From Aminobacter ciceronei (lineage in GTDB: Bacteria > Pseudomonadota > Alphaproteobacteria > Rhizobiales > Rhizobiaceae), in NCBI RefSeq assembly GCF_014138625.1, contig NZ_JACJHY010000032.1:1-64000 (forward strand): a DNA stretch of 64,000 bases, given 5' to 3'. Below are positions 5,459 through 37,521 of this stretch, piece after piece. The position numbers and the translations under genes are program-made. The number at the start of each line of letters is the position of its first letter. Position 1 is the first letter of the stretch. Under the pieces are notes generated by a model. It saw only the letters and a program-made list of their open reading frames with translations, ran no database searches and was not told the origin of the DNA.

Positions 5459-5484
5459 GACCCTATTGCGCCAAGCTTGCGCGA
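5459..5484 (-). promoter_or_regulatory. class II flagellar promoter element, flhA copy
   Basis: On the minus strand TCGCGCAAG-N10-TAGGGTC, 47 nt upstream of the flhA ATG. It matches the fliF copy (20591-20616) at nearly every position, including GCAAGCTT and TAGGGTC. Its presence shows that flhA has its own promoter and does not depend on read-through from fliQ across the inserted MFS gene. The sequence is seen directly; its promoter function is inferred. Confidence 0.6.
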
Positions 5485-5630
5485 GGGTGGGAGGCAGGCG
5501 AAAAGATGCGGCAGCTGGCACGCAACGGAGCTTCGACGGGCGCTTTTTATGCCAATCTTCGGCGTCGAAGGACCGCGCGATGGAGCTGGCAAGGAGGGCA
5601 GGCTTCGCGACGGTCGCTGCGGCCTTACGC

Positions 5631-7274
5631 CTAATGCAGCTCGATATGCCCCTTGTGACTGCCGAGGGCTGCCGCCAGGCTGGTGGGGCGTTCGATCAGG
5701 CGGTGGACGCGGGGTGGCTGGGGGCCGCTGTGCAAGGCGCGCAGCTTGTCGCCGATGACGGCGTCGGCGTGGGTGGCGCGCTGGTTGTGGCGGATGTATT
5801 CGAGCCAGGTCGGGGTGTGGTAGGTTTCGACCCAGATCTCGGGGTTTTCAAGGTCGCGCGCCAGCACCCAGTTGCGGGCGCCGTCACGGCGGCGGACACG
5901 GCGGCGCTCGGTCATGGCGTCGAGGAAGGCCGGTACATCTTCTTCGCGGATGATGAATTCGATCGAGATGACGATGGGCCCCGAACGCGGCCGGACGTCG
6001 AGCGCCAGGTGTGGTTCGCGGAAGCGGTTGAGCGGGTCGAGGTTGAGCGCTGTGTGCTCGGGCAGCGGCAGCAGGAAGCCGATCGCCGCACCGACCAGCA
6101 TGACGATGCCGGCAACGATCAGGGCGGTGGCCGCGCCGTTGCTTTCGGCGACGAGACCCCAGATCCAACTGCCCAGCGCCATGCCGCCGAAGGTTGCCAT
6201 CTGGTAGATCGACAGCGCCCGGCCGACGACCCAGCGTGGGGTCGACATCTGCACGGTGATGTTGAAGTGCGAAAGCGCAAGCACCCAGCAGGCGCCGCCG
6301 ACGAGCAGGCCGGCCGAGGTGAGCCAGGCATTGGAGCTGAAGGCGGCGATCCAGCTGCAGAGGGCGAAGCCGAGAAAGGCCGAGCGCACGATGGTTTCGC
6401 TCGTCATGCTGCTGCGGATGCGGCCGCTGATCAGCGCGCCGCCGACCGCGCCGACACCGAAGGCGCCGAGCATGATGCCGTAGGTCAGCGGGCCGCCGGC
6501 GACGAGGTCGCGGGCAACCAGCGGCAGCAGTGCCTGGATGACGACGGCGGTGAAGCCGAAGGCGAAGCTGCGCAGCAGCACCTTGCCGATGTTGGGCGAC
6601 ATGGCGACGTAGCGCAGGCCTGCACCCATGGCCTGGCCGAGCGTTTCGCGTGGCAGCGGGTTTGCCGGATATTGCGGGCGCCAGCGAAACAGTACGAAGA
6701 TGATGGCGAAGTAGCTCAGCGTGTTGACGGCGAAGGCGGCCGCAGCACCTGCGGTGGCGACGATGATGCCGCCGATGGCCGGGCCGACGCTGCGCGTCAT
6801 GTTGAAGCCCATCGAGTTGAGCGCGACGGCCGCCGGCATCACCGTGCGGGGCACCATGTCGCCGACGGAGGCCTGCCAGGACGGGTTGTTAAGTGCGGTG
6901 CCGCAACCAATGAGGAAGGTGAAGGTGAGCAGCAGCCAGGGCGTGATCAGGCCGAGATAGGCAAACAGCGTCAGCGCCGCCGAGACGGCGAACATGAAGC
7001 ACTGCGCGGTCAGCATGACGCGGCGGCGGTCGTAGCTGTCGGCGAGTGCGCCCGACGCGAGCGAAAACAGCATGATCGGCAGGGAGATCGAGGCCTGGAC
7101 CAGCGCCACCATGTCGGAGGAGGTGGCGATCGAGGTCATCAACCAGGCGGCTCCGACAGACTGGATCAGACTGCCGAAATTCGAAGCCAGGCTGGCGAAC
7201 CAGACGGAACGGAAAATGCCGTGCTTGAAGGGCGCGAGCGCCGAACCTTGCTCGTACTGGTGGTCGTCGTCCAT
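5631..7274 (-). CDS. MFS transporter with C-terminal monooxygenase-like domain
   Basis: 547 residues. Residues about 15-410 form a 12-helix major facilitator of the MFS_3 / EntS-like group (motif ASGALADSYDRRRVMLTAQ between helices 2 and 3). Residues about 425-540 are soluble (VISIEFIIREEDVPAFLDAM ... NWVLARDLENPEIWVETYHTPTWLEYIRH), resembling a dimeric alpha-beta-barrel (antibiotic biosynthesis monooxygenase-like) domain. The family is annotated as exporters; the substrate is unknown. It sits between fliQ and flhA, genes usually adjacent in rhizobia, and has non-coding gaps of 269 bp and 219 bp on either side. It is probably an insertion unrelated to motility. Confidence 0.85.
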   Translation of the reverse strand: MDDDHQYEQGSALAPFKHGIFRSVWFASLASNFGSLIQSVGAAWLMTSIATSSDMVALVQASISLPIMLFSLASGALADSYDRRRVMLTAQCFMFAVSAALTLFAYLGLITPWLLLTFTFLIGCGTALNNPSWQASVGDMVPRTVMPAAVALNSMGFNMTRSVGPAIGGIIVATAGAAAAFAVNTLSYFAIIFVLFRWRPQYPANPLPRETLGQAMGAGLRYVAMSPNIGKVLLRSFAFGFTAVVIQALLPLVARDLVAGGPLTYGIMLGAFGVGAVGGALISGRIRSSMTSETIVRSAFLGFALCSWIAAFSSNAWLTSAGLLVGGACWVLALSHFNITVQMSTPRWVVGRALSIYQMATFGGMALGSWIWGLVAESNGAATALIVAGIVMLVGAAIGFLLPLPEHTALNLDPLNRFREPHLALDVRPRSGPIVISIEFIIREEDVPAFLDAMTERRRVRRRDGARNWVLARDLENPEIWVETYHTPTWLEYIRHNQRATHADAVIGDKLRALHSGPQPPRVHRLIERPTSLAAALGSHKGHIELH

Positions 7275-7328
7275 GCGCCAAGCCGGCTGAGCCGGGTGCC
7301 CTCGTGTGATTTGCCGCTACGGCGCCAA

Positions 7329-7344
7329 GCCTCCTTCGGGAGGC
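7329..7344 (-). terminator. possible terminator between fliQ and the MFS gene
   Basis: Short GC-rich hairpin GCCTCC-ttcg-GGAGGC, about 200 bp after the fliQ stop and 55 bp before the MFS start. No good T-run follows, so function is doubtful. Nothing else was recognised in the 7275-7543 gap. Confidence 0.25.
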
Positions 7345-7543
7345 GCAAAGGACGCCGTGGCCCTCCTGTGGATGCACGACCTGTTCGGGGAATCGATTTC
7401 GATCATGCAGGAATGACTAGACCATGATCGGCTGGCCGGGTGAACCCATTTGTACGATGCCGGCATGGTCCAGTGGCGGCGCGGCTAAGGTCCACAGGGA
7501 CGGTCTCAGGTCGCGGTGCGCGAACAGGCTTGCCACGCAGCCA

Positions 7544-7810
7544 TCAGAAGCCGTTTTCGATGCGCTCGAAGATGACGTTGGTGAAGCTGGAAATCTGGGC
7601 GCCGATAAACGGGCCGGTCAGCGCCACCACCAGGAAGATGGCGACGATCTTAGGCACGAAGGTGAGCGTGATTTCCTGGATCTGGGTCAGGGCCTGGATC
7701 AGGGCGATGCCGACGCCAACCAGCATGGCTGCCGCCACCGCGGGCGCGGAGGCAGTCAGCACCGTCCAGATGGCGAACTGGACAAGGTCGAGGGCATCGG
7801 CTTCGTTCAC
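7544..7810 (-). CDS. fliQ: flagellar export gate protein FliQ
   Basis: 88 residues forming two membrane hairpin helices (residues about 13-38 and 50-75), the standard size of FliQ. Conserved stretches: GVGIALIQALTQIQEITLTFVPK. FliQ packs around FliP/FliR in the export gate. The GTG start at 7810 overlaps the flgD stop (GTGA). It is the last gene of the flgE-flgK-flgL-flaF-flbT-flgD-fliQ unit; in relatives flhA usually follows directly, but here an MFS gene intervenes. Confidence 0.95.
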   Translation of the reverse strand: MNEADALDLVQFAIWTVLTASAPAVAAAMLVGVGIALIQALTQIQEITLTFVPKIVAIFLVVALTGPFIGAQISSFTNVIFERIENGF

Positions 7811-8220
7811 GCGGCAGCCTTGACCTTGACGCCCGCGACGACCGCGACGGTCTTGCCGTCGGACAGCACGGCGGTGACGCCGTCCTTGGCGAGACGGACC
7901 TCGGTGACCGTGCCCGACGTCTTGCCGTCGGCCGAAGTGATGTTGCGGCCGATCAGGGCGTCTGCCTGGGCGAGCGCCGAGGACTGCAGGATCTGGTCGA
8001 GGCGCGCATTCATCTGCACCGACTGCTCGACCTGCGAGAAGGTGGCGAGCTGCGCCACATATTCGGTCGATTCCATCGGCTTGGTCGGGTCCTGGTTCTT
8101 CATCTGCGCCATGAGCAGCTTGAGGAAGGACTGGTAGTCGACCTGCGTCTTGGAGCCGGTCGACTTGTTGGCGCCGGTGTTGGAGCCGACAGGCGGCGTC
8201 ACGGAGAAATCGATGGGCAT
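7807..8220 (-). CDS. flgD: hook-capping protein FlgD
   Basis: 137 residues, the short alphaproteobacterial form (E. coli FlgD has 231). The N-terminal FlgD core is clear: DYQSFLKLLMAQMKNQDPTKP and ESTEYVAQLATFSQVEQS at residues about 28-75, followed by a small beta-rich part (GTVTEVRLAKDGVTAVLSDGK). FlgD caps the growing hook and directs FlgE polymerisation. The ATG overlaps the flbT stop by one base (TGATG). Confidence 0.95.
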   Translation of the reverse strand: MPIDFSVTPPVGSNTGANKSTGSKTQVDYQSFLKLLMAQMKNQDPTKPMESTEYVAQLATFSQVEQSVQMNARLDQILQSSALAQADALIGRNITSADGKTSGTVTEVRLAKDGVTAVLSDGKTVAVVAGVKVKAAA

Positions 8221-8660
8221 CAGAATCTGCCTCCGGCTGCGCGGGCGGGTTGCACCGTTGCCGTCTCTTCGCCGGCGATGATGCGCTGTTCGAGTGGATA
8301 GAGGGAGCGGATGGTCTTCAGCGCCTCGTAGACATGATCCTCGGCAACGAGGCGGTCGACATGCTTCAGGCTGGAGAGGATTTCCGCATTGTCGAAGGTG
8401 GCGAGCAGCAGCGGCAGCGAGCGGCGGAACATGTCGCGCGCCTGGACCGCGCCGATCGGATCGACCAGCATGACCTGCAGGATGAAGTAGAGCTGGCGCA
8501 GCGGCGTCGAGGCCTGCTCGGGTTGCAGCACATGGCTTTCGAGCAGGAACTGCACGTCGTTGAGCAGTTCGAGCGAGACCTTGCGGTCGGCGCGCACCAC
8601 GGCACCGTTGATGTAGATCTTCTCGTTGGCCTTCAGCGAGATCTTGAGCGTGTTTTTCAT
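8220..8660 (-). CDS. flbT: flagellin synthesis regulator FlbT
   Basis: 146 residues starting MKNTLKISLKANEKIYINGAV, the hallmark N-terminus of FlbT. In Caulobacter FlbT binds the 5' untranslated region of flagellin mRNA and controls its stability; in Brucella a positive role is reported. The ATG at 8660 overlaps the flaF stop (ATGA). The frame is open upstream to 8756, but that part runs inside flaF and is not FlbT-like. The structured leaders of flagellin genes 2-5 in this window are candidate targets. Confidence 0.95.
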   Translation of the reverse strand: MKNTLKISLKANEKIYINGAVVRADRKVSLELLNDVQFLLESHVLQPEQASTPLRQLYFILQVMLVDPIGAVQARDMFRRSLPLLLATFDNAEILSSLKHVDRLVAEDHVYEALKTIRSLYPLEQRIIAGEETATVQPARAAGGRF

Positions 8661-9004
8661 TGTATGCCGTCGCGGATGATTTGCGAGACCTCGATCAGGC
8701 CCTCGAAGCTTTCGGAGCGGCCCTGGCGGATGTCTTCTGACTCGCGTAGCAGCCACAGGCCGATCGAAATGAGGTTGGCGCGGAGCTCCTTGGGGAGAGC
8801 ATTCTCGGGGTTGCCGAGATCGTCCATCAGGGAGGTCCAGACGCGGTTGGTGAAGTTCAGTGCGGCGATCGCCTCGTTGGAATTGGCTCCGGCTTCGCTG
8901 GCCCTTATCAGCATGTCGATTGAGCGGCTGAGAAGCTGACGTTCGCGATCCCGCGCATCGGCGACGGAGTCGGTCTGAATGTCGGCATAGGAGAATTGAT
9001 ACAT
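8657..9004 (-). CDS. flaF: flagellar biosynthesis regulator FlaF
   Basis: 115 residues, all helical, starting MYQFSYADI. The central part (LLSRSIDMLIRASEAGANS, ALNFTNRVWTSLMDDLGNPENALP, ELRANLISIGLWLL) is typical FlaF. FlaF works with FlbT in alphaproteobacteria to control flagellin synthesis or secretion, as shown in Caulobacter. It precedes flbT with a 4-nt overlap and follows flgL by 26 bp, so hook-filament junction proteins and the flagellin control pair share one message. Confidence 0.95.
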   Translation of the reverse strand: MYQFSYADIQTDSVADARDRERQLLSRSIDMLIRASEAGANSNEAIAALNFTNRVWTSLMDDLGNPENALPKELRANLISIGLWLLRESEDIRQGRSESFEGLIEVSQIIRDGIQ

Positions 9005-9030
9005 ATGCGTCCCGTTTGTTGCCGTTCAGG

Positions 9031-10074
9031 TCAGAGGTAATTCATCAGGCTGAGCTTCTGGATACGTGCCGTCAATGCGTAGGATCTCTCGATCATCGAA
9101 ATCAGGTCGCTGACGCGTGTCGCCGCCTTTTCGGGGTTGACGCCCTCGGTGTTGATGATGTGGCGCTCGAACAGGTCCATCTGCATCTTGATGCGATCGG
9201 TGGCGTTGGTGACGCGCTGCTCGATGATGCCGGTCTGCGATTCCAGCTGGCCTATGTCGCTGATGGCGCTGCCGATAATCGACACGGCGCGGGTGACCAG
9301 CGCGCCGCGGGCCGCAGCGCCGACATTGGAATCGAGCAGGTCGCTGACCATGGCGGCGGCCATGGCGACCTTACGGATGCCGGCATTGTTGGCGCTGACC
9401 GAGGACTCGGTGGTTTCGTTGAGCGTGATGCGGCTGGTGATGCCCTGGTCGGTGGCATTGGAGAAATTGGCCTGCCAGCCGGCGCCGAGGAACATCGGCT
9501 CGACGACCGAGGTCATGAAAGTGTCCATCTGGGTGGCCGAGATCGACTGCGCCGCCGGATCGTTCTGCGTGAAGCCGAAATGTGTCTGGAAGGCAGTGTC
9601 GAATGCCGCCTTGGCCGGCGAGCCGGCCTTGAATTCGTTGATCGGCTTGACGTCGGTGTTGGTGCCGGCAAACAGATATTCGCCGTTGAGGCTGGTGTTG
9701 AGCACCGAGGTCAACGTGTCGAGCGTGCCGCGCGCCGCCTTCTGGGTCAGCGCGTAGGCGGCATCACCGGAGGAACTGCTGGTCAGGCTGGCAAGGAAGG
9801 TCTGTGCGGCCTTGCCGACCTCGTTGAGCGACTTCTGCGTCGCTGACAGGCGCGACGACACCAGGCCGTTGCTGTCGACAATGCCATCGAGGCGCTCGAG
9901 GTCGCGATGGAGTGTGACCGACTGCGCGGTGCGGGCGCCAAGTGCCAAGCCGGTGTCGGCGACAAAGCCGGAGCTGGCCTCCTTCTGCGCCTTGATGAGC
10001 TCGGACTGCTGGCGCAGCATCGAGTAGCGCAGGGCGCTGGTGACCGCGGAGGAGGAGACGAACGTCGCTTTCAT
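9031..10074 (-). CDS. flgL: hook-filament junction protein FlgL
   Basis: 347 residues. The N-terminus (VSSSAVTSALRYSMLRQQSELIKAQKE) and C-terminus (RVSDLISMIERSYALTARIQ) form the helical D0/D1 regions shared with flagellin. FlgL (HAP3) joins hook to filament and is exported through the type III gate with help from FlgN. It lies 4 bp after flgK. Rhizobial copies are often annotated only as a flagellin-like protein; the order flgK-flgL makes the assignment firm. Confidence 0.92.
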   Translation of the reverse strand: MKATFVSSSAVTSALRYSMLRQQSELIKAQKEASSGFVADTGLALGARTAQSVTLHRDLERLDGIVDSNGLVSSRLSATQKSLNEVGKAAQTFLASLTSSSSGDAAYALTQKAARGTLDTLTSVLNTSLNGEYLFAGTNTDVKPINEFKAGSPAKAAFDTAFQTHFGFTQNDPAAQSISATQMDTFMTSVVEPMFLGAGWQANFSNATDQGITSRITLNETTESSVSANNAGIRKVAMAAAMVSDLLDSNVGAAARGALVTRAVSIIGSAISDIGQLESQTGIIEQRVTNATDRIKMQMDLFERHIINTEGVNPEKAATRVSDLISMIERSYALTARIQKLSLMNYL

Positions 10075-10078
10075 CGCG

Positions 10079-11533
10079 CTATCTCACCGCGCCCAGGAGG
10101 GCTGCCAGCATGTCGTCGACCGCCTTCAACAGCCGGGCTGTGGCCTGATAGGACTGCTCGAGTTCCAGCATCTTCGACATCTCGATGTCGACATTGACAG
10201 CGGTATCGTTTGACAGGGCCTCGGCGGTGCGGATAGCCAGCGCTTCCTTGGTCTGGGCGGCGGTGTCCGCCTGCTTGCGCATGCCCTCGAACCAACCGAT
10301 CGAATTGGTCGAGAAGGTGCTGAGGCTCGAGCTTGTGGCGATACCCGCGGCCGGATCGAAAGTCATCGTCTGGTCGATGCGGTTGCCATAAGAGATCAGC
10401 AGGTCGGCATAAGAAGCGTTGCTGGCGGGATTCTTGACATAGGCCGCGCCGTTGATGCCGCCATCGCGCAACAGCTTGGGATTGCCGCCGATCTGCGGGT
10501 CGACCGCCGGATTGATCTTGATCGAGCGCGCAAGGCCATTGACCAGTACGCCCGCCGGCGGGACCGCCGGGCCGCCGGACCAGGTGAACAGGCCGGCCTG
10601 GTCGGCAAGGGCTGGTGCCGTCTCCGAGAAGGCGGTGATCAGTCCGCGCGCCATCTCGTCGAGCTGCGCTTGCATCGTGGTGGTGACACTGTCGCGGAGC
10701 TGTATCATGCCGGCGAGCTTGCCGCCGGCGTTGGTGTTGGCGCCGACGCCTGGCTGAAGCGGCACGCCGTCGATGAGAATCTTGTTGCCGGTCACGCCGG
10801 CGGAGTAACCCGCCAGCGGCTGGAAGGTGACCGCCCGTGGGACGGTCTCGAACAGGGTGGTGCCATCACCTGTGGTGATGACCATGTCGTTGTCGCCGCG
10901 CTTGAAGGTCGAGATCGGCACGATCTCGGAAATCTTCTTCAGGATTGCGTCGCGCTGGTCGAGGGAGTCGTTGACGTCGCGGCCGGCGCGGGTGCCCTGG
11001 ATGATCGTCTTGTTGGCCTGCTCGAAATCGGCGAGAAGCCTGTTGAGATCATCGACGGTGGTCGCGATCTCGCTGTCGGTCTCGGTGCGGATGCGCTGAA
11101 TGGCATCGCTGCCGTCGTTGAGCGAGCGCACCACCTGGCGGGCGGCGTCGATCGCCGCCGTGCCGAGGTTCTGGTTGGAGGGGGCTGCCGCGTAAAGCTG
11201 CAGCGCTTGCTGGAACTTGCCGAGCTGGGTTGCGACCGAGCCCTTGTTTTCCGAGCCGTTGACGTCGAGTGAAAGTTTCTGCAGCCCCTCCAGGAGGGTG
11301 TTCTGGCCGGTGAAGTCGGCCAGGGCAGACAGGTTCTGGCGAAACAGCTGCTCGTTGGTCGCACGCTGGATTTCGACCACGCGCGCCCCGGGGCCGGTGC
11401 TGGCGAGCACGGCTGTGCGGCGCACGTAGTCAGGATTTGATGCATCCGCGACGTTGCGGGAAACAGTGCTTGTCTGGCGCGACGTGTTGCGAAGCGCAGA
11501 TTGGGCTATGCTAATGGCAGACGACAGCGACAT
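10079..11533 (-). CDS. flgK: hook-associated protein FlgK
   Basis: 484 residues. N-terminus SAISIAQSALRNTSRQTSTVSRNVADASNPDY is the FlgK/rod-hook consensus; the C-terminus DIEMSKMLELEQSYQATARLL carries the matching terminal helix. FlgK (HAP1) forms the first ring of the hook-filament junction. It lies between flgE (36-bp gap) and flgL (4-bp gap) in one unit. Length fits alphaproteobacterial FlgK (enterobacterial is about 550). Confidence 0.95.
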   Translation of the reverse strand: MSLSSAISIAQSALRNTSRQTSTVSRNVADASNPDYVRRTAVLASTGPGARVVEIQRATNEQLFRQNLSALADFTGQNTLLEGLQKLSLDVNGSENKGSVATQLGKFQQALQLYAAAPSNQNLGTAAIDAARQVVRSLNDGSDAIQRIRTETDSEIATTVDDLNRLLADFEQANKTIIQGTRAGRDVNDSLDQRDAILKKISEIVPISTFKRGDNDMVITTGDGTTLFETVPRAVTFQPLAGYSAGVTGNKILIDGVPLQPGVGANTNAGGKLAGMIQLRDSVTTTMQAQLDEMARGLITAFSETAPALADQAGLFTWSGGPAVPPAGVLVNGLARSIKINPAVDPQIGGNPKLLRDGGINGAAYVKNPASNASYADLLISYGNRIDQTMTFDPAAGIATSSSLSTFSTNSIGWFEGMRKQADTAAQTKEALAIRTAEALSNDTAVNVDIEMSKMLELEQSYQATARLLKAVDDMLAALLGAVR

Positions 11534-11569
11534 GCTATGTTTTTCCAGCGGGCGATAAGCCCGTCAGTC

Positions 11570-12823: not shown

Positions 12824-12842
12824 CGGTGGTCTCCTCAAATCT

Positions 12843-12872
12843 CATGCCACGCTGGTGAAGTTACGTGGCATG
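12843..12872. repeat. 9-bp inverted repeat between rem and flgE
   Basis: CATGCCACG and CGTGGCATG separated by 12 bases, in the 65-bp gap between rem and flgE. It overlaps the N10 spacer and TA portion of the proposed flgE promoter element. It may be a weak rem terminator or an operator; no T-run follows on either strand. Confidence 0.5.
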
Positions 12873-12882
12873 TCTTGCGCGA
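12857..12882 (-). promoter_or_regulatory. class II flagellar promoter element, flgE copy
   Basis: Minus strand TCGCGCAAG-N10-TAACTTC, 33 nt upstream of the flgE start and immediately after the rem stop codon. It has the same CAAG-N10-TA geometry as the copies before flhA, fliF, flgB, the DUF1217 gene and motA. Promoter function is inferred from recurrence and position. Confidence 0.6.
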
Positions 12883-12888
12883 GGCTGG

Positions 12889-13557
12889 TCAGACGATCAG
12901 CCGGTAGCCGAGGAAACGCTTCGAATCGATCGGGTCGTGGCCAAGACGCTCACGCAATTTCTTGCGCAGCTTCGAGATGTGGCTTTCGACGACATTTTCT
13001 TCGACTTCTTCGTCGAAGACACCGTAGATCGCGTTGAAGACCTGGGTCTTGGTGACGCGACGGCCGCTGTTGCTTGCCAAATACTCGAGGATGCGACGCT
13101 CACGGCGCGGCAGCGGCATCGGCTCGCCGTCGATCTCGGGGTCGCGGCCGTCCATGAAGATGCGCATTGCGCCGATCTGGGTGAAGCCGGTGTCTTCCTG
13201 GGCGCGACGGCGGATGGCCGAGATGCGGGCAAGGATCTCACGAATGTGGACGGGTTTGCGGATGACGTCGTCGACACCCGACTCGAAAAGCTTGAGCGTG
13301 TTTTCGAGATTGTTCTGTTCGCTGAGGGCGATGACCGGGGCTTTGGTACGGTCTCGCAGCTGACGCGGCGAGATCGAACCCTCGTTGCAGTCGCCGATGA
13401 GGAAGGCGCGAACGGAACGCAGATCCTCGTCGGGAGCGCTGGAAACCCATTCGCCGAATTCGGTCGAACGGAAGCCTGCGCACGCCACACCTTCCCGGTC
13501 GAAGAGTGAATTATATCCGTTGGTGACGAGCTCTCGCTCGTCCACGATTACGATCAT
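12889..13557 (-). CDS. rem: OmpR-type motility activator Rem (FtcR-like)
   Basis: 222 residues: receiver-like domain (residues 1-115) and winged-helix DNA-binding domain (about 130-220; [20 protein letters not shown] ... [13 protein letters not shown]). The receiver begins [11 protein letters not shown] and has only one acidic residue where two or three are usual; a candidate phospho-Asp is D56 in FLIGDC, and the Lys of VIRKPV is kept. In Sinorhizobium Rem, and in Brucella FtcR, activate structural flagellar operons, with Rem itself under VisN/VisR. No sensor kinase gene is adjacent. It lies between fliK-transglycosylase and flgE, as in Sinorhizobium. Confidence 0.9.
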
Positions 13558-13687
13558 GATTCCGCCCCCGAATCAGTAAAAATGCCCTGTTAACCAATCG
13601 GTAATGGGTCGGGACCAAGGCGACCAATCGTGAATTCTTGCCGCTATTTTTTAGGGAGTCTGGAATCGCATGGGTTGAACAGGTTGC

Positions 13688-13712
13688 ACGATATGCGTGC
13701 ATCCTTGCGCAA
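13688..13712 (-). promoter_or_regulatory. weaker class II-type element upstream of rem
   Basis: On the minus strand TTGCGCAAG-N10-TATCG, the same CAAG-N10-TA spacing as the six other copies. It lies about 130 bp upstream of the rem start, much further than the 22-47 nt of the others, and TGCGCA is self-complementary, so it may be fortuitous. If used, rem would have a long leader. The rest of 13558-13769 shows only an AT-rich stretch just before rem. Confidence 0.3.
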
Positions 13713-13769
13713 GCCTGTAATGAGGGGCGGGGTAACGGCCCGTGTCTGGTTCGGTTCGGCTGGAAACGC

Positions 13770-20590: not shown

Positions 20591-20616
20591 GACCCTAGCC
20601 CGCGAAGCTTGTGCGA
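20591..20616 (-). promoter_or_regulatory. class II flagellar promoter element, fliF copy
   Basis: Minus strand TCGCACAAG-N10-TAGGGTC, 32 nt upstream of the fliF GTG and downstream of the fla1 terminator, so fliF is not read from fla1. It is nearly identical to the flhA copy. Function is inferred. Confidence 0.6.
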
Positions 20617-20623
20617 AAATGTT

Positions 20624-20736: not shown

Positions 20737-21738
20737 TCAGCTCTTGAACAGCGACAGGATGTTCTGCGAGTTCGAATTGGCGATCGACAACGCCTGGATG
20801 CCGAGCTGCTGCTGGACCTGAAGGGCCTGCAGGCGGGTCGATTCCTTGTTCATGTCTGCGTCGACGAGCTGACCGACGCCGCGGTCGATGGAGTCCATCA
20901 GGCTGGTGGTGAAGGTCTTCTGAAGGTCGATCTGGCTCTTGGCCGCGCCGAGCGTGGTGGCGGCGTCGGTCATCTCGGCGAGGGTCGTTTCGGTGACCTT
21001 CACCATCTGCAGGATCTGGTCGAAGCTGAAGCCCTTCACCGAAAGGGTCGCAACGGCGTAGCCGTCTGTGGCGGCAACCGCTGCACCCGGGGTCGTCGGG
21101 TTGACGGCGGTGTTGTCGCGCACGCCCGTGGTGCCGAGGCGAAGGCCTTCGAGGATGCCTTTGTTGACGTTGTTGGTGGCTGCGGCGTCGTAGAGCTTCA
21201 CGCTCTGGACCTTGATGTCGATCGTTGCCAGCGTGACTGTGCCCGAGTTGTCGCGGATGAAGCCCGAAACGATCTTGGCGTCATTGTGGACGCCGGCCGC
21301 CGAATGGCCGGCAGCTGTCGTCGAATTGACCGAAAGCCAGTTGGCTCCGGAGAAGCTGGCGCTGTCGGCATAGCTCTTGAGCTGTGCCTGCAGCGCCTTG
21401 ATCTCGACGTCGATCTTGTTCTTGTCGGCGTCCGAGCCATTGGCGGCGGCGACAAGCTTGACCTTGATGTCGTTGAGAGTGTCGATCGACTTGTGCATCG
21501 CGGTATATGCGGTGTCGACCTTCGAGGCGCCGAGGCCGAGCGCGTCCTGGACCGTCGAGAGTGCCCTGTTGTCGGAGCGCATGGTGGTGGCGATCGACCA
21601 GTAGGCGGCGTTGTCGGAGGCTTCCGCGACGCGGAAGCCGGTCGAGATGCGGGCCTGGGTGGTGTTCAAAGCCTTGTTCGTGGTGTTGAGGCTCTGAAGC
21701 GCCGTCAACGCCGAAGCATTGGTCATAATACTGGACAT
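20737..21738 (-). CDS. flagellin 1 (most divergent of five)
   Basis: 333 residues. The N-terminal D0/D1 (MTNASALTALQSLNTTNKAL, TGFRVAEASDNAAYWSIATT) and C-terminal helices (RLQALQVQQQLGIQALSIAN) are conserved flagellin; the middle is variable. It differs from the four others in the start (SSIMTNASA rather than SSINTNASA), in ending LFKS, and in lacking their 5' leader. Rhizobial complex filaments are built from several flagellins with one major subunit. It has its own terminator and an upstream 11-bp dyad, so its regulation probably differs. Confidence 0.95.
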   Translation of the reverse strand: MSSIMTNASALTALQSLNTTNKALNTTQARISTGFRVAEASDNAAYWSIATTMRSDNRALSTVQDALGLGASKVDTAYTAMHKSIDTLNDIKVKLVAAANGSDADKNKIDVEIKALQAQLKSYADSASFSGANWLSVNSTTAAGHSAAGVHNDAKIVSGFIRDNSGTVTLATIDIKVQSVKLYDAAATNNVNKGILEGLRLGTTGVRDNTAVNPTTPGAAVAATDGYAVATLSVKGFSFDQILQMVKVTETTLAEMTDAATTLGAAKSQIDLQKTFTTSLMDSIDRGVGQLVDADMNKESTRLQALQVQQQLGIQALSIANSNSQNILSLFKS

Positions 21739-21868: not shown

Positions 21869-21997
21869 GGCAGATTAAAGACCACACGACGACAGGCCTT
21901 CGCATTTACCGTTACGTGGCGGAATCTATGCTCGCCGTAACTTGCGCGAAGCTATCCGGCGCCGCCAGGCGAGGAGAAGGCGGCGGACAGGGCAAAA

Positions 21998-24419: not shown

Positions 24420-24434
24420 GAAGCATCAATGTCG

Positions 24435-27067: not shown

Positions 27068-27083
27068 GCCCGGCAATCTCCAC

Positions 27084-27106: not shown

Positions 27107-27173
27107 GCGGTATGGTTAACGCGCATTAACTTGCTGATTTTCCCGGGATTTGTGCGCGCCCCAAAAACACGTT

Positions 27174-27204: not shown

Positions 27205-27254
27205 GTCATCCCGGATTCCGGTGATGGCGCGCCCGCAAGCGGACGCGCGGTGAT

Positions 27255-28492: not shown

Positions 28493-28501
28493 GTCCCGGA
28501 C

Positions 28502-29206: not shown

Positions 29207-29793
29207 GTGGGGTCTTCCCGGCGTGCGGCGCTCGCGATGATGCGGGTCAGTTCCGCCGCGACCTTGCTTTCCATTTCATTCAGGATGACGCTCGCCTTGC
29301 GCGCGTCGAGCTTCATCATGATGGCGGCGGCGAGGTCGGTGTTCATCACCGCCAGGCGCTCGGCGGCGGCATCGGGCTTCATGCGTGAATAGATCTGGAC
29401 GACACCTTCCTCGGCGCGGGCGAGGAAGACCTCGCGGCGCTTCAGCCAGGTTTCGTATTCGGTCTTGCGCTCCTCGAGCAGGGCGATGCGCTTGTCGACC
29501 TCGGCCTGCAGCTTCTTCAACTCCTCGGCCTGCAACTGGTAACGGCGGTCGCGGGCAGCGTCGGCAATGTTGGAACAGAAGCGCTCGACCTCGCTCTGTT
29601 CGACCGGCGGCACGGCAGCCTCGACGGGTTCCTTCGGGGCCTCGCGCTCGATGACCCGCGTCGGCGTGCCCTGGACCACGGGCGCCTTCGGCGCGGCCTG
29701 TTCGGCGGATGCGGCACCGGCAAAGACGACGCCGAGTGCTGCCGCGGCAAGTGCGTGGCGACGGATGTGCGAGAGGGCGTTGGTCATGGCCAT
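29203..29793 (-). CDS. motE: MotE, chaperone for MotC
   Basis: 196 residues with a signal peptide (residues about 10-30), a long coiled coil (about 75-120; AEELKKLQAEVDKRIALLEERKTEYE) and a MgtE-N-like C-terminus (AAERLAVMNTDLAAAIMMKLDARKASVILNEM). In Sinorhizobium MotE is a periplasmic chaperone stabilising MotC; the gene lies between flgI and flgH there as here. Two close ATGs (29793, 29787) are possible starts. Confidence 0.88.
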   Translation of the reverse strand: MAMTNALSHIRRHALAAAALGVVFAGAASAEQAAPKAPVVQGTPTRVIEREAPKEPVEAAVPPVEQSEVERFCSNIADAARDRRYQLQAEELKKLQAEVDKRIALLEERKTEYETWLKRREVFLARAEEGVVQIYSRMKPDAAAERLAVMNTDLAAAIMMKLDARKASVILNEMESKVAAELTRIIASAARREDPT

Positions 29794-29796
29794 GGC

Positions 29797-31074: not shown

Positions 31075-31553
31075 ATGGCACCCACGCGGATCGAGCCGTC
31101 GGCCATGACCGTGCCCGTGAAGACCTTGCCGCTGTCGAGGTTGCGGACCTTGACGACGTCGCCGGCTGCACCTGGCTCGAGCGTCACGGCCGCGGCCGAG
31201 ATCATCAGCGGGCCGGAGGCGAAGACGACCTGAACGGAAGCGCCGCGGTCGACCAGCCAGGCCTCGCGCAGCGCGGTGATCGGAACATAGCGGCCGGGCA
31301 AAAGCGTACGCTTGGCGATGCGGCCGTCGAGCTCGTCGGCCATGGTGGCGACTGCGTCGGGGCGCACCTTGCCCGGCTTGAGGGTGACTTCCTTGAGCGA
31401 GGACAAGGCGATCGTCTCGCCGGGATAGATGACGCGGTTGGGAACGAGCACGACCTCCTGGTCGGCAGCCTGCGCTGCGCCGCCAAGCATGGCGAAAGCA
31501 AGGACTGCCGAGCGGATGTAGAGGAGGGCGTGCCGTCGCCGCATAATCTTCAC
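31071..31553 (-). CDS. flgA: P-ring assembly chaperone FlgA
   Basis: 160 residues with a signal peptide and an SAF-type domain ([21 protein letters not shown] ... [31 protein letters not shown]), the FlgA signature. It helps FlgI assemble in the periplasm. The start is probably GTG 31553, which overlaps the flgG stop (GTGA); ATG 31544 is three codons further in. Confidence 0.92.
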
Positions 31554-32338
31554 CGGATGTTCTTGGAGACGACGGCGGCCATTTCGTCGGCCGCCTGGAT
31601 GACCTTGGAGTTCATCTCGTAGGCGCGCTGTGCCGAAATCAGCTCGGTGATTTCCTTGACCGGATCGACGTTGGAGCTTTCGAGGTAGCCCTGGCGGATG
31701 GTGGCGTAGCCGGGGTCGCCGGGAATGCCGACATTGGCCGCGCCCGACGCTTCGGTTTCGGCGAAGAGATTGTCGCCGAGCGGCGCGAGGCCGGCCTCGT
31801 TGGCGAAGTTGGCAAGCGTCAGCTGCCCGAGCGGCTGGAGCGCCGTCTGGTTGTCGAGCCGGGCGAAGACCTGGCCGGAATTGTTGACGATGACCTCGAC
31901 GGCGTCCTGCGGCACGTTGATCGCTGGGATGACGTTGAAGCCGTCGACGGTGACGAGCTGGCCGGTGGCGTTCTTGTTGAAGGAGCCGGCGCGGGTGTAG
32001 AGCGTCTGACCGTCGGCGCCTTCGATCTGGAACCAGCCCTTGCCGGTCAGCGCGAGATCGTACTCGTTGCCGGTGTTGGTCGGCACGCCCTGGATGTGGA
32101 CGTTGCGCACCGCAGATGTCTTGACGCCGAGGCCGATCGAGACGCCTTCCGGCACGATCGCCGAATTGGCCCGGTTGGGCACGCCCTGGGTGCGGTCGAC
32201 CTGGTAGAGCAGGTCGGAGAACTCGGCGCGGGCGCGCTTGTAGCCGGTCGTGTTGATGTTCGCGATGTTGTTCGCGATCACCTCGAGATTTGTCTGTTGG
32301 GCATTCATGCCCGTGGCGGCAATTGCAAGCGCTTTCAT
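31550..32338 (-). CDS. flgG: distal rod protein FlgG
   Basis: 262 residues, the standard FlgG length. It starts [21 protein letters not shown] and contains [23 protein letters not shown] and the C-terminal rod motif [30 protein letters not shown]. It forms the distal rod. It begins 11 bp after the fliE end in the flgB operon. Confidence 0.97.
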
Positions 32339-32349
32339 CGGGTTGTTCC

Positions 32350-32664
32350 TCAGATGCCCATGCGGCTGACTTCGAGATAGGCCGTGACGATCTTGTCGCG
32401 GATGGCGACGGCGGCCTGCAGGGCCTGCTCGGCGCTCATCACGGCATCGACAACCTCACGCGTGTCGGCCTTGCCCTGAAGGCCGGAGAGCGACAGCTGC
32501 TCGGCCTGGCGCAAGGTGTTGTGCGCTTCGGTCGCTGCGTCGGCGAGGGCGGCGGCGAAGGACGAGGCGACACCGCCGCCTGCCGCAGCCGCGCCGGCCT
32601 CGGGCACAACGCTGGTCGGCTTGGACAGTAGCTGGGTGCCGACTGGGCTGATGGAGCCGATCAT
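32350..32664 (-). CDS. fliE: MS-ring-rod junction protein FliE
   Basis: 104 residues, a typical FliE. The C-terminal half ([31 protein letters not shown]) holds the conserved helix that resembles rod proteins. FliE joins the MS ring to the proximal rod and is needed for export of rod subunits. Its ATG overlaps the flgC stop (TAATG). Confidence 0.95.
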
Positions 32665-33080
32665 TACTGATTCCTCATAAGATCAATCGTCATGGAAATG
32701 AGTTCGCGCGCCTGCTTGACGACCTGCAGGTTGGCTTCATAGGAGCGGTTGGCCTCGGTCATGTCGGCCATTTCGATGATGACATTGACGTTGGGCATCT
32801 TGACGAAACCGGCGGCGTCGGCGGCCTCGTTGCCGGGCTGGAACTCCAGCGGAAAAGCCGTCTGGTCGTGGCCGATCGAGGCGATCTCGACGGTCGAGGC
32901 TCCGGTGGCGCGGTCGAGTTCGGCGGCGAAGCTGACGGTCTTGCGACGATAGGGATCGGCGCCCGGCGTGTTGCCGGTCGACTGGGCATTGGCGAGGTTT
33001 TCCGAAACGATGCGCAGGCGTTCCGACTGGGCTCCGAGACCGGAACCGGCGACCTTGAGGGCGGCGACGAGCGGATCCAT
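32664..33080 (-). CDS. flgC: proximal rod protein FlgC
   Basis: 138 residues. N-terminal rod motif ([31 protein letters not shown]) and C-terminal rod motif ([31 protein letters not shown]) are clear. It starts 5 bp after the flgB end and is second gene of the operon. Confidence 0.96.
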
Positions 33081-33085
33081 CCCGG

Positions 33086-33466
33086 TCAGGCCTTCGTGCT
33101 CAGCATGATCATGCGGTGGAAGGCCTTGACGATGGCCGTGTTGAGTTCGAACGAGCGGCGGACTTCGCCGGCTTTCATGAGCTCTTCCTCGACGGCAACT
33201 GTATTGTCCGAAGGCAGAACGGCGTGCTTGGGATCCTCCGGCCTGATGGCGTAACCGGCTTCGGTGGCGCCGCCGGTGAGGTGGCCCGTCTGGGTCGACG
33301 CCATGGCGACGCGCGAACGGTCGAGCACTTTCTCGAAGGGCTCGATGTCGTTGGTCCGATAGCCGGGCGTGTTGGCGTTGGCGACGTTACCGGCGATGGC
33401 GTTCTGGCGCACTGAGAGCCAGCGAGCCTGCTGGGCAGCCAGATCGAACAGGTTGACGGGGTCCAT
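33086..33466 (-). CDS. flgB: proximal rod protein FlgB
   Basis: 126 residues. It contains [28 protein letters not shown], the FlgB form of the rod motif, and a C-terminal helix ([21 protein letters not shown]). ATG 33466 has GGAG seven bases upstream; in-frame codons up to 33490 would start inside the promoter element. It is the first gene of the ten-gene basal-body operon down to fliP. Confidence 0.95.
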
Positions 33467-33488
33467 GGAAATCTCCGAGCAGATTTCC

Positions 33489-33514
33489 AAACACTATGGC
33501 CTCAGTCTTGCGCG
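33489..33514 (-). promoter_or_regulatory. class II flagellar promoter element, flgB copy
   Basis: Minus strand CGCGCAAG-N10-TAGTGTTT, 22 nt upstream of flgB, in the 70-bp gap after the preceding operon. A second GCGCAAGG occurs just upstream (33516-33523 region). Function is inferred. Confidence 0.55.
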
Positions 33515-33536
33515 GGCCTTGCGCGGGGCCCGGCCG

Positions 33537-34166
33537 CTACTGCGCGACCTGGAAGACCTCTTCGCGCGAGGTGACAAGCACCCATTTACCGTCGCGCTGT
33601 TCGATCGATGCAACGCGGCTCGAATCGGGCAGCACGGAGCCGCGTTGCACCACCCAGACACCGGCGTCGTCCTCGACCATGGCGCGGCCATTGGCGATGT
33701 GCACGAGCTTGAATTCGATCTTCGGTCCGGGAAAGGGCTGTTCGGCTATGCCGGCAAGACCAGCTTCATCCTTGTTGGGGCGCAGCGAGCCGGTGGCAAA
33801 CAGGTCGAGCTTCATCGGCGGAATGTCTTCGGCCGTCATCGGCGCGCCGACACGTTCGACCTGCTCGCCCATGACAAGCGGGACCGCCTGGTCGTTCTGA
33901 CCGCCGCCGGAGAATTTCATCGCCCGGATGCCGAACTTGTCCTGATTGAAGAAGATGTACCAGGGAAACAGCGCGCAGGTGAGCCCGAGTGCGATGCCGA
34001 GGGCGGCGATGATGAAATCGCTGCGGTGATCACGCTTTTTCTCGTGCTTCGGCGTGATGGTCAGCGGCCCGCGCTTCAGGCCGAGCCGCTGCATCAGCGT
34101 GCGCGGCTCATCCTTGGAGCCGATCATCTCCAGGAATTCGCTTGCCGGGTCATTCCGCCTGAACAT
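33537..34166 (-). CDS. single-pass membrane protein of flagellar cluster, unknown function
   Basis: 209 residues. Charged cytoplasmic start (residues 1-48), one membrane helix (about 50-73, FIIAALGIALGLTCALFPWYIFF), and a periplasmic part of about 135 residues ending in WVLVTSREEVFQVAQ. I do not recognise a family beyond a conserved gene in rhizobial flagellar clusters. It overlaps the fliI end by 17 nt and closes the DUF1217-flgF-fliI unit, so a role near the basal body or export apparatus is likely but unproven. Confidence 0.7.
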   Translation of the reverse strand: MFRRNDPASEFLEMIGSKDEPRTLMQRLGLKRGPLTITPKHEKKRDHRSDFIIAALGIALGLTCALFPWYIFFNQDKFGIRAMKFSGGGQNDQAVPLVMGEQVERVGAPMTAEDIPPMKLDLFATGSLRPNKDEAGLAGIAEQPFPGPKIEFKLVHIANGRAMVEDDAGVWVVQRGSVLPDSSRVASIEQRDGKWVLVTSREEVFQVAQ

Positions 34167-35550
34167 GTGTTCTATCCCTGGATTTCAGATGGCGTGCGAG
34201 GTCGGAGAACGGATCGAGCGAGGGCCCGTCGGCAGGCGACTGGCCGAGCGCTTCGTAGATTACCGGCACCTGCTTCACGGCGAGGTCGAGGTCGGGATCG
34301 GCGCCCGGCTGGTAGGCGCCGAGCAGACGGATGTCGCGCGTGTCCTCGAAGCGCGAGATCAGTGCCTTGAGTTTGCTGACGAGCTGGCGCTGCTCCGGCG
34401 TCCAGGCCTTGGAGGCGAGACGGGAGATCGAAGCCAGTGGATTGACCGGCGGATAGCGACCTTGCTCGGCGATGGAACGGTCGAGCACCACGTGGCCATC
34501 GAGAATGCCGCGCACGGAATCGGCGACGGGATCGTTGTGGTCGTCGCCGTCGACAAGCACGGAGATGATGGCGGTGATCGATCCCGTGCCCTCCATGCCG
34601 GGGCCGGCGCGTTCGAGCAGCTTGGGCAGTTCGGTGAAGACGGAGGCGGGATAGCCGCGCGCCACCGGCGGCTCGCCGGCGCCGATGGCGACCTCGCGCA
34701 GGGCATGGGCAAAACGGGTGATGGAATCGAGCACCAGCAGGACGCGGTGGCCCTTGTCGCGGAAATGCTCGGCGACACGCATCGCGGTGTCGGGCGCGCG
34801 GCGGCGCATCATCGCGCTCTCGTCCGAGGTGGCGACGACCGCGACCGTCTTGGCCATGGCAGCGACGCCGATGGTGTCTTCGAGGAATTCGCGCACCTCG
34901 CGGCCGCGTTCGCCAATCAGGGCGACGACGACGGTGTCGAAGGCATCCGCACCGGCGAGCATGGCAAGCAGCGTCGACTTGCCGACGCCGGAGCCGGCGA
35001 AGATGCCCATGCGCTGGCCGAAACACAGCGGGGTGAAGATGTCGATGACGCGGACGCCGGTCAGGAAGCCTGTTTCGACGCGTTGGCGGGCGAGCGCCGC
35101 AGGCGGGATCGCTTCGGTGGCATCGTTCCTGGCACTGCGGACCAACGGTGCGCCGCCGTCTATGGGGCGGCCGAGCGCGTCGATGGCACGGCCGCGCCAG
35201 CTCGGATGCGGCGTGATGGCGATCGGCCCACGCGTGAAGACGGCATCGCCGACGCCGACCTCGCCGCTGCTTTCATAAGGCGCCACCAGCACCTCGTCGC
35301 GGCCGATCTGCACGATCTCGCCGCGCCGGTTGCGGCCATGGCCACGGTGTTCGACGATGTCGCCGAGGCGCGCGCTGAGCGACAGGCCGCCGACCTTGTA
35401 GTGGGTAGATGCGATCTCGGTCACTTGCCCGCCGCGTCTGACCAGCAGGCGGTCGTCGGCGAAGCGGTGCTGGATCCGCTCGAGCGCTTCGAGCCGGTTG
35501 TCGTGGACCGCCTGGGGCTCGTCGCGGATGTTGGCCAGCGCGTTGCTCAC
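34150..35550 (-). CDS. fliI: flagellar export ATPase FliI
   Basis: 466 residues, F1-beta-like ATPase. Walker A GSGVGKST at residues 186-193, Walker B VLLVLDSITRFAHALRE, and GEPPVARGYPASVFTELPKLLERAG, diagnostic of FliI/YscN. It energises chaperone release and loading at the export gate with FliH and FliJ. The start is GTG 35550, directly abutting the flgF stop. The N-terminal 30 residues, which bind FliH in other species, are present. Confidence 0.97.
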   Translation of the reverse strand: MSNALANIRDEPQAVHDNRLEALERIQHRFADDRLLVRRGGQVTEIASTHYKVGGLSLSARLGDIVEHRGHGRNRRGEIVQIGRDEVLVAPYESSGEVGVGDAVFTRGPIAITPHPSWRGRAIDALGRPIDGGAPLVRSARNDATEAIPPAALARQRVETGFLTGVRVIDIFTPLCFGQRMGIFAGSGVGKSTLLAMLAGADAFDTVVVALIGERGREVREFLEDTIGVAAMAKTVAVVATSDESAMMRRRAPDTAMRVAEHFRDKGHRVLLVLDSITRFAHALREVAIGAGEPPVARGYPASVFTELPKLLERAGPGMEGTGSITAIISVLVDGDDHNDPVADSVRGILDGHVVLDRSIAEQGRYPPVNPLASISRLASKAWTPEQRQLVSKLKALISRFEDTRDIRLLGAYQPGADPDLDLAVKQVPVIYEALGQSPADGPSLDPFSDLARHLKSRDRTHVQAE

Positions 35551-36273
35551 TTACTTCGAGCCGAGCGTCTTGATGGCGTCGGAGAACGACGCTTCGGTTT
35601 GGCGCATCAGAGCGGCGGTGTTCTCGAAGGCGCGCTGCACCATGATGAGCTTGCTCATCTCCTTGATCGGATTGACGTTGGACTCCTCGACGAAGCCCTG
35701 GACGATGCCGGCGTCCATGCGGTCGACCACCGGCTCGGGCGCCGTCGGCGGAATGACGCCGGAGTTGCCGTAACGGACGAAATTGGTACCAGGGTTGAAC
35801 TCATAGAGGCCGATGGCGCCGACGAGGCGTCCGTCCTGGCGCAGCGAGCCGTCGGAACCCGCGGTGGGCGGTCCGGCACGTGGGTCAAGCTGCATCGGCG
35901 CGCCGCCGGCGTCGAGCACCGGATGGCCCTCGACGGTGACGAGCTGGCCTTCCGCCGTCATCGAGAAGCGGCCGTCGCGCGTCATCACGACGCCAGCAGG
36001 CGTTTCGATGCCGAACCATGCGTCGCCGCGAATGGCGAAGTCGAACGGGTTGCCGGTTTCACGCATCGCGCCATGCTGGGTCGACAGGTAGGTATCACCC
36101 GGCGAGGTGAAGGAGACGGATTTCGGGCCGAGGCCGGAAACGACGTCCTCGAACTTCACACCGGTGGCACGGAAGCCGACAGTCGAGGCGTTGGCGACGT
36201 TGTCGGCAATGGTGTTGAGACGCTTTTCCAGAGCCACCTGGGCGGAAAGGGCGACGTAAAGACCGTTCTGCAT
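35551..36273 (-). CDS. flgF: proximal rod protein FlgF
   Basis: 240 residues. N-terminal YVALSAQVALEKRLNTIADNVANASTVGFRAT and C-terminal VQGFVEESNVNPIKEMSKLIMVQRAFENTA are rod motifs; the length and the FDFAIRGDAWFGIETPAG stretch fit FlgF rather than FlgG. It lies 7 bp after the DUF1217 gene and abuts fliI. Confidence 0.94.
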   Translation of the reverse strand: MQNGLYVALSAQVALEKRLNTIADNVANASTVGFRATGVKFEDVVSGLGPKSVSFTSPGDTYLSTQHGAMRETGNPFDFAIRGDAWFGIETPAGVVMTRDGRFSMTAEGQLVTVEGHPVLDAGGAPMQLDPRAGPPTAGSDGSLRQDGRLVGAIGLYEFNPGTNFVRYGNSGVIPPTAPEPVVDRMDAGIVQGFVEESNVNPIKEMSKLIMVQRAFENTAALMRQTEASFSDAIKTLGSK

Positions 36274-36280
36274 GATGTTC

Positions 36281-37405
36281 TCAGAACCTCAGTTTCTGCA
36301 TGGCAAACAGCACGTCAGTCGAAACGCCGTAGGCCGGCGACGACGAGCCGAACAGGGTGCCGACGGAGGCCTGCACCGGGGAGGACGGATTGTTGATTTC
36401 CCAGAGGCTGGTGAAGCGCTTGAGGAATTCGCCGAGCTTCTTGGGATTGGCAAAGGTCTCGATCTTCAGCTTGTCCTCGAACAGCTTGACCTGACGGTCG
36501 ATGTTGGCCGAGGCGAATGATTCAGGCAGGCCGAGCGCGGTGCGCACGACCTTGGCCAGCGCTGGGTCGGCGAGCACTTCGTAGAAGCTGGTGATCGAGG
36601 GGGCCTTGCGCTCGAAATAGAGCGCGAGGCGCACGCCCTCATTGTCCTTGCCGGCGTCCTCTTCCAGGGTCTGGCGGACATACTTGTCGACCGCCGGACG
36701 CTGCGCGGCATTGTAGGTCGTCGCATCCTTGCCGAGTGCTTCGAAGTTATAGGTGCTGGCAAACGCGGCGTAGCGCTTGTCCGTCATCTGGTTGGCGTAG
36801 CTCTTCGGGTCGCGAACGCCGCCGGCCAGTACCTTTTCCATCATCTCCTTGTTGGGGATCGACCCTTCGATGCCGAAGGATTTCATGGCGAAGGTGTAGA
36901 GCCTGGTGTCGGACATAAGGTCCTTGGCCGATGTCACCTTGACGATGTTGTCGAGGTAATACTTGACCTCCTTCTTGACCGCTTCGGAGTTGGGGTCGAC
37001 ACCATCGAGCTTGACCCGGATCAGGTATTTGTCGACCGCGCCCTGCTGCGCCTTGGTGTAGACGGTGGCCTTGTCACCGAGCTCGGCAAAGTTGAAGCTC
37101 TTGACGAATTCGGCGTAGCGCTTGTCGGTCAGCTTGTTGGCGAAGCTGTCTTCCTTGGCCACGCCTTCCTTCAGGGCCTTGACCATGAAGGCCTTGGCGT
37201 AGGCCATGTCCTGCAGGCCGTGCGCCTTCATGGCGTATTTGAACAGACGGTCGTTCTTGACGAACTCGTCGATGCTTTTCACCTTGGTGATGTTCTTGAG
37301 ATAGTACTCGGTGTCGCGCTCGACAGTGGGCTGGTTCTCCACGCGATCCAAGGCCTTGCCGAGATCCCGCGCGATCAGGTGGTAGCTTGTATAGGTATTG
37401 AGCAC
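36281..37405 (-). CDS. DUF1217 flagellar-cluster protein with internal repeats
   Basis: 374 residues from GTG 37405 (GGAAGG nine bases upstream; VLNTYTSYHLIARDLGKAL matches the usual family start). Two clear tandem repeats, each beginning YYLxNIxKVxS and running through LTDKRYAEFVKSFNFAELG (first) and MTDKRYAAFASTYNFEALG (second), plus a degenerate third near the C-terminus. No signal or membrane segment. DUF1217 is found in alphaproteobacterial flagellar loci; function is unknown. It heads the flgF-fliI unit and is divergent to motA, so it is probably expressed early. Confidence 0.85.
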   Translation of the reverse strand: MLNTYTSYHLIARDLGKALDRVENQPTVERDTEYYLKNITKVKSIDEFVKNDRLFKYAMKAHGLQDMAYAKAFMVKALKEGVAKEDSFANKLTDKRYAEFVKSFNFAELGDKATVYTKAQQGAVDKYLIRVKLDGVDPNSEAVKKEVKYYLDNIVKVTSAKDLMSDTRLYTFAMKSFGIEGSIPNKEMMEKVLAGGVRDPKSYANQMTDKRYAAFASTYNFEALGKDATTYNAAQRPAVDKYVRQTLEEDAGKDNEGVRLALYFERKAPSITSFYEVLADPALAKVVRTALGLPESFASANIDRQVKLFEDKLKIETFANPKKLGEFLKRFTSLWEINNPSSPVQASVGTLFGSSSPAYGVSTDVLFAMQKLRF

Positions 37406-37438
37406 GACAACAGCCCTTCCGCCGCAGCATAGACGGTG

Positions 37439-37464
37439 AAGGCTACGCCCCATTGCTTGCGCGA
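37439..37464 (-). promoter_or_regulatory. class II flagellar promoter element, DUF1217/flgF operon
   Basis: Minus strand TCGCGCAAG-N10-TAGCCTT, 33 nt before the GTG start at 37405. It also supports that start, since an upstream start at 37477 would precede the element. Confidence 0.6.
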
Positions 37465-37496
37465 GGCTGAATGGCATTGCGATGATCCTTCAAGCC

Positions 37497-37521
37497 TCAC
37501 ACAAGGCACGGCCGCTATCTG
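37497..37521 (+). promoter_or_regulatory. class II flagellar promoter element, motA operon
   Basis: Plus strand TCACACAAG-N10-TATCTG, 38 nt before the GTG start of motA. It is the most divergent of the six good copies in the first half, but the spacing is exact. The two divergent copies lie 32 bp apart. Confidence 0.5.

Follow-up and report, generated by a model that had tools for sequence, protein, structure and literature searches.

In the 64-kb stretch of the Aminobacter ciceronei contig NZ_JACJHY010000032.1 analysed here (the window, part of a 6.77-Mb genome in 96 contigs), a candidate sigma-70 promoter that depends on the regulator Rem very probably stands before each structural flagellar unit. 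The full element reads C(A/C)AGCYT-CGCR-CAAGnYT-N7-YATANT, that is, an 11-bp direct repeat, 7 bp and a sigma-70-like -10 hexamer. The original prediction, made from the letters of the window, had described the motif as CGC(G/A)CAAG-N10-TA(G/A/T). This gave the downstream half correctly and overlooked the upstream half. The copies in the window, and the gene of the presumed binder, are as follows.

5460-5490, minus strand: flhA promoter (candidate); CCACCCT (5484-5490), CGCG, CAAGCTT (5473-5479), -10 TAGGGT (5460-5465); 48 nt to the ATG
12858-12888, minus strand: flgE promoter (candidate); CCAGCCT-CGCG-CAAGACA, -10 TAACTT; 34 nt to the ATG
20592-20622, minus strand: fliF promoter (candidate); ACATTTT-CGCA-CAAGCTT, -10 TAGGGT; 33 nt to the GTG
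33491-33521, minus strand: flgB promoter (candidate); CAAGGCC-CGCG-CAAGACT, -10 TAGTGT; 24 nt to the ATG
37440-37470, minus strand: promoter (candidate) of the DUF1217-flgF-fliI unit, its genes named by Pfam; TCAGCCT-CGCG-CAAGCAA, -10 TAGCCT; 34 nt to the GTG
37491-37521, plus strand: promoter (candidate) of the motA unit, divergent from the preceding copy; CAAGCCT-CACA-CAAGGCA, -10 TATCTG
21923-21960, minus strand: degenerate copy before the first flagellin gene (20737-21738); ATAGCTT-CGCG-CAAGTTA; leader of about 185 nt
13686-13723, minus strand: weak and doubtful copy 130 nt upstream of rem
12889-13557, minus strand: rem, the presumed binder; Pfam Trans_reg_C, E=1.9e-16

Copies in the window and in near relatives

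The short pattern has five exact matches in the window, against 0.11 expected, and none of 100 shuffles reaches five. All five are on the minus strand, before flhA (5463-5483), flgE (12861-12881), fliF (20595-20615), flgB (33494-33514) and DUF1217/flgF (37443-37463). The copies before motA (37498-37518, plus strand, CACACAAG) and rem (13691-13711, minus strand, TGCGCAAG) each have one mismatch, and none of the seven copies departs from the 10-base spacer. The prediction that the element stands before the structural flagellar operons with an exact 10-base spacer is thus borne out, exactly at five of the six units and with one mismatch at motA. The stretches CAAGCTTnGCG and TAGGGTC, which it had assigned to both the flhA and the fliF copy, are also present. 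Between -10 hexamer and start codon lie 24-48 nt in the six structural units, with the motA figure of 35 nt running to the codon that precedes the apparent GTG start, and 130 nt at rem. Pfam backs flhA, flgE, fliF, DUF1217 and motA, and a rod protein at flgB, where the repeat is visible as CGCGCAAGGCC CGCGCAAGACT. With two mismatches allowed, the short pattern is not enriched in the window (61 matches, 81 expected).

The surroundings of rem have counterparts in at least 565 GTDB loci, the best 80 of which (from Aminobacter, Mesorhizobium and their relatives) were taken as near relatives. Upstream of flhA the pattern is exact at 17 of 23 placeable gene starts and has one mismatch at the other six. 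It is exact in 67/79 cases upstream of flgE (11 more with one mismatch, one with two) and in 68/74 upstream of fliF (the other six with one mismatch). CGCRCAAG and TA are nearly fixed in these loci, and the spacer is mostly variable except for its CTT start at flhA and fliF.

The direct repeat and the -10 box

A first matrix, with the near-relative sites and three from the window as training set, was applied to flagellar clusters of other families. The Rem-type clusters (70 loci, 1.37 Mb) have 58 matches of at least 16 bits, against 1.7 expected from shuffles, and the aligned matches reveal a second CAAG half-site 11 bp upstream. The repeat is also found without a matrix, by looking for a half-site with at least 5/7 positions of CAAGCYT exactly 11 bp before CAAG in the upstream regions of flhA, flgE, fliF, flgB, motA, DUF1217 and flagellin genes in Rem-type clusters (genes with an unplaceable start or fewer than 200 bases upstream were skipped). 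It is present at lag 11 in 76 of 140 distinct regions from 12 families other than that of the window. The remaining lags between 5 and 24 yield 2-11 regions, 50 shuffles give a mean of 2.7 and a maximum of 8, and polar-type regions have the lag-11 repeat in 0/31. At least one strict 11-bp repeat occurs in 30/32 genomes and in 12/12 families.

In a set of 87 sites for which the repeat was the sole criterion, with the window's family included, YATANT emerges unselected at +14 to +19 from CAAG. A is present in 83% at +15 and T in 74% at +19, the second and last places of the -10; TA is exact in 35/87 sites and TAnnnT is found in 20/87. The eight window copies have TAnnnT in six cases, TATCTG at motA and, at the flagellin copy, either CATAGA in the expected position or TAGATT, two bases later. 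Sigma-54 promoters carry the signature GG-N10-GC, and the sigma-28 consensus is TAAA-N15-GCCGATAA. Neither is seen in the column table of the 87 sites, read by eye, in agreement with the earlier view that the element resembles neither class. The TA box is predicted to act as a -10 of the sigma-70 type, with its spacing fixed. Judged from sequence, the element has the make-up of an OmpR/PhoB-type activator-dependent promoter, with an 11-bp tandem repeat in the -35 position, a -10 at constant distance from it and a presumed regulator of winged-helix type.

A genome scan with the motif had been proposed as a check, and its outcome is divided: the bare pattern is unspecific (see below), but a held-out model ranks the six structural sites at the top. 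The alignment behind it, A1, has 68 rows, made up of 68 references minus six, plus the six window sites; L142:3834 and L118:13133 were left out as doubtful, and L187:2350, L129:16615, L185:4292 and L189:3869 without further test. A2 consists of 44 A1 rows, after removal of the six window sites, 15 same-family sites and three near-duplicates. The held-out model, R2, was built from these 44 sites, zero of which are from the window's family, and R1 includes the window sites. In the R2 run on the window's own genome, with 150 of 2944 first-look candidates scored, the six flagellar sites take the first six places among the reported matches, scoring between 20.3 and 17.8 bits; the first-flagellin copy follows in seventh place (15.2 bits), and the best other match has 14.5 bits. 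The same six lead with R1, with the flagellin site seventh and the next match at 14.1 bits.

The element moves with the flagellar genes. It stands upstream of flgJ-type (Rod-binding) genes in other families and, within the window's own family, of FliK genes in other genera, and 21 matches of at least 16 bits in Rem-type loci have no window-like gene behind them. The back-to-back motA/DUF1217 pair (window 37438-37523) is also present in L129, L185, L189, L191 and L223, loci from several other families, with the MotA of L223 recognised by eye.

Rem as presumed binder and rival explanations

Rem is a response regulator with an OmpR/PhoB-type winged-helix domain, and its nearest solved relative by sequence is RegX3, with PhoB further down. 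The window protein shares 99% identity with its A. carboxidus counterpart and 95-97% with the proteins of four other Aminobacter loci and one metagenome-assembled genome named Mesorhizobium. Among 36 sequences, conservation is 0.87 in the presumed recognition helix, 0.78 in the whole domain and 0.64 in the receiver. By eye, a G takes the expected place of the acceptor Asp in the receiver, conserved at 90% or above in the 36 aligned sequences, which agrees with the label 'aspartate-less' that passages of PMC9812332 give to Rem. The same passages have Rem directly activating class II genes, and those of PMC9812332 and PMC8429497 present it as an OmpR-like orphan regulator under VisNR. An 11-bp tandem repeat is what an OmpR/PhoB-type protein such as Rem would be expected to bind.

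Across the order, the element tracks Rem and the Rem-type flagellum, with exceptions. R2 was applied to 297 Hyphomicrobiales genomes, 28 of them training genomes, at a cut-off of E 0.02 with stricter filters. Rem is found in 83 of the 297. At least two R2 matches are present in 56 of these 83 and in 3 of the 214 genomes without Rem; with the training genomes excluded, the count for genomes with Rem is 35/55. At least one match is present in 70/83 and 29/214, respectively, and the cut-off alone predicts about 4 of the 214. Identity of FlhA to that of the window falls into two groups, 57-100% and, among the matches listed, 44-48%, with one 59% fragment apart. Rem is present in 75/75 genomes with a listed FlhA of at least 57% over most of its length, and eight Rem genomes have no such FlhA match. 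The 20 polar-type flhA loci (0.39 Mb) have no first-matrix match of at least 16 bits. Four of these loci come from genomes that also hold a Rem-type flagellum; the Rem-type loci of three such genomes reach at least 16 bits, and the best match in the fourth (G254) has 14.4 bits with the first matrix. Two Rem homologues occur in each of the genomes G045, G085, G196 and G218.

Several observations weigh against a Rem-dependent promoter. Genome-wide there are 19 exact matches to the bare pattern, 14 of them beyond the window, and 26 to its reversed control. A 23-base form that tolerates one mismatch has 82, among them all seven flagellar copies, and its control 103; on these counts the bare pattern is ruled out as a genome-wide specific marker. 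The first half-site at fliF is weak (3/7 matching), two of the 32 genomes have no strict 11-bp repeat, and the polar-type loci have two matches between 14 and 16 bits, against 1.0 expected. No R2 match at E 0.02 is found in 13 of the 83 Rem genomes. Rem-less genomes with single matches are more numerous than the cut-off predicts, which slightly lowers confidence in the Rem-dependent promoter. G112, with no Rem at the cut-off, has five model matches, one of which (L224, 1754-2365) precedes a 172-residue protein without a Pfam family. Some strong matches precede non-flagellar genes, such as a globin (24.7 bits) and a phage-type lysozyme (22.3 bits), and several top matches elsewhere precede proteins without a Pfam family. 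The counted genomes are kin, so the counts overstate independence. FtcR, the Rem homologue of Brucella melitensis, reportedly acts on fliF, and the motif that passages of PMC9456535 give for it from chromatin immunoprecipitation sequencing (ChIP-seq), TGTGGGCA, is unlike the element. This motif, which comes from one Brucella data set, is not enriched in the window (one occurrence, 1.87 expected).

Autoregulation of rem through the element finds no support among relatives. The weaker copy reported before rem is there, with one mismatch, but its status as a true site does not hold up: it is not kept in relatives, and R2 gives it an E of 1.49 genome-wide. Upstream of rem the 80 near loci have no exact match, and the best match has one mismatch in one locus, two in eight, three in 68 and four in three.

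A candidate Rem-dependent promoter, as originally proposed, is the best-supported reading, based on the tandem repeat, the co-occurrence with Rem and the lack of matches of at least 16 bits at polar-type loci. It is unlikely that the element is bound by another co-occurring regulator, either VisNR or an unlinked OmpR-type protein, with Rem acting elsewhere. Such a regulator would fit the differing FtcR motif, as well as G112 and the 28 more Rem-less genomes with one or two matches, and Rem as the binder is what we infer. Rem, however, is present in 75 of 75 genomes with the FlhA type of the window, its domain type suits an 11-bp tandem repeat, and the element spans 12 other families. The VisN/R-like protein of the window, in contrast, has full-length relatives in 6/62 genomes (61 of the 83 with Rem, plus G112), all of one family; this search took one of two LuxR-type proteins, the other being its neighbour (42589-43587). 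It is therefore unlikely to be the general binder, and may be an upstream regulator.

43341-44042, minus strand: LuxR-type regulator, presumably VisN/VisR-like from its gene position; Pfam GerE

Even less probable is an alternative-sigma promoter, in which CGCRCAAG would be a -35-like box with a short spacer. The fixed spacing from CGCRCAAG to TA would suit this, and no -35 TTGAC is seen in the copies, but a sigma -35 box would not need an upstream half-site that repeats the downstream one at 11 bp, and the -10 is sigma-70-like with sigma-54 and sigma-28 consensus sequences absent from the column table. Chance, or functionless shared ancestry of the upstream DNA, can practically be dismissed: near relatives do have much flanking sequence in common, but a model of other families places the six sites first in 6.77 Mb, half-site and -10 columns are conserved next to a mostly variable spacer, and other lags are at background.

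At a promoter of this Rem-dependent type, the 11-bp repeat would be occupied by two protomers of Rem in head-to-tail order. With the first -10 base numbered -12, they would cover about -37 to -20, the usual place of a -35 box. Rem would keep RNA polymerase, carrying the housekeeping sigma-70-type factor, on the -10, 7 bp past the second half-site, and the tandem dimer would substitute for the -35 contact of this polymerase, which is class II activation of the kind seen at PhoB promoters. RNA synthesis would begin about 7 bases beyond the -10, with short leaders for the structural units and long ones for flagellins. We infer these start positions, as well as the role of Rem as activator. Because rem itself is activated by VisNR in Sinorhizobium and relatives, according to the literature, one regulator would switch on basal body, hook, export and motor together.

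Flagellins, known systems and implications

The element had been described as absent before flagellins. This is wrong for the first flagellin gene, which has the degenerate copy at 21923-21960, and right for the other four in the window, where the best match within 320 nt has 0.4 bits. In the near loci a flagellin-linked copy of at least 11 bits is found in 38/80 (L084 being doubtful), or 39/81 with the window, a count in which some sequences end before that gene. Mesorhizobium has a variant, CAAGGCT-CGCG-CAACCCT with TTAA, before the flagellin adjoining fliF. Based on comparison with the window flagellins, the element precedes flagellins in six other families, and by eye in a seventh. Nine distinct flagellin copies are among the 87 sites, with 125-171 nt from TA to the start. 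A post-transcriptional flagellin regulator is encoded in the window.

8220-8756, minus strand: flbT, post-transcriptional flagellin regulator; Pfam FlbT, E=2.7e-40

The 3' end of flhB (41910-41947, plus strand) has a 19.7-bit first-matrix match ahead of an open reading frame at 42024-42461, also seen in L052. It is not counted as a further site because it is missing among the eight window matches of R1, with E up to 5. In two loci of one genus, L227 (G139) and L236 (G190), a match lies 163 nt before the same 251-residue protein without a Pfam family, and the remaining model matches of both genomes are scattered.

PhoB promoters carry the Pho box, in which 7-bp direct repeats stand 4 bp apart (an 11-bp period) beside a -10, with no -35. 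The element has the same repeat layout, but its half-site is CAAGnYT and that of the Pho box is CTGTCAT. The Rem regulon of Sinorhizobium meliloti, consisting of class II flagellar genes, was reportedly described by Rotter et al. in 2006. Going by passages of PMC9812332 and PMC8429497, this regulon has its regulator family and its target operons in common with the window. Here, in contrast to S. meliloti, the site is defined from sequence and in 12 other families, including ones in which no full-length VisN/R-like relative was found. Unlike PhoB, Rem appears in the passages of these papers as an orphan regulator without a sensor kinase.

LafR of Bradyrhizobium diazoefficiens is a Rem homologue that runs one of two flagellar systems, controlling lateral and not polar flagella according to passages of PMC8429497; the passages on LafR that were searched give no binding site. 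Rem, LafR and FtcR all go by the name of flagellar master regulators. The words flagell- and fli- are absent from the main text of the S. meliloti start map (PMC3616915), and passages of the agrobacterial start map (PMC10469942) give no flagellar promoter sites. The passages searched gave one published Rem-type site, that of Brucella, which does not fit; an earlier description is possible, as the main Rem papers were outside the search. PhoB-like class II activation is of a known kind, and the Rem site defined here may be new, barring such a description.

It is an even bet that, throughout Hyphomicrobiales, a single Rem box serves as DNA code for one of two flagellar systems, staying with its genes as operons are reshuffled and including flagellins in at least six of the 12 other families sampled. 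If so, the class II/class III split would there be no transcriptional cascade, with structural genes and flagellin obeying the same aspartate-less regulator, and the long flagellin leaders would leave room for FlbT-type control. The ChIP-seq motif of FtcR would then not be its flagellar site. With its half-sites, spacing and -10 defined, the box would allow candidate Rem targets to be listed in any genome, would separate Rem-run from polar-type flagella in two-flagellum species, and would offer a test of how an aspartate-less regulator activates transcription.

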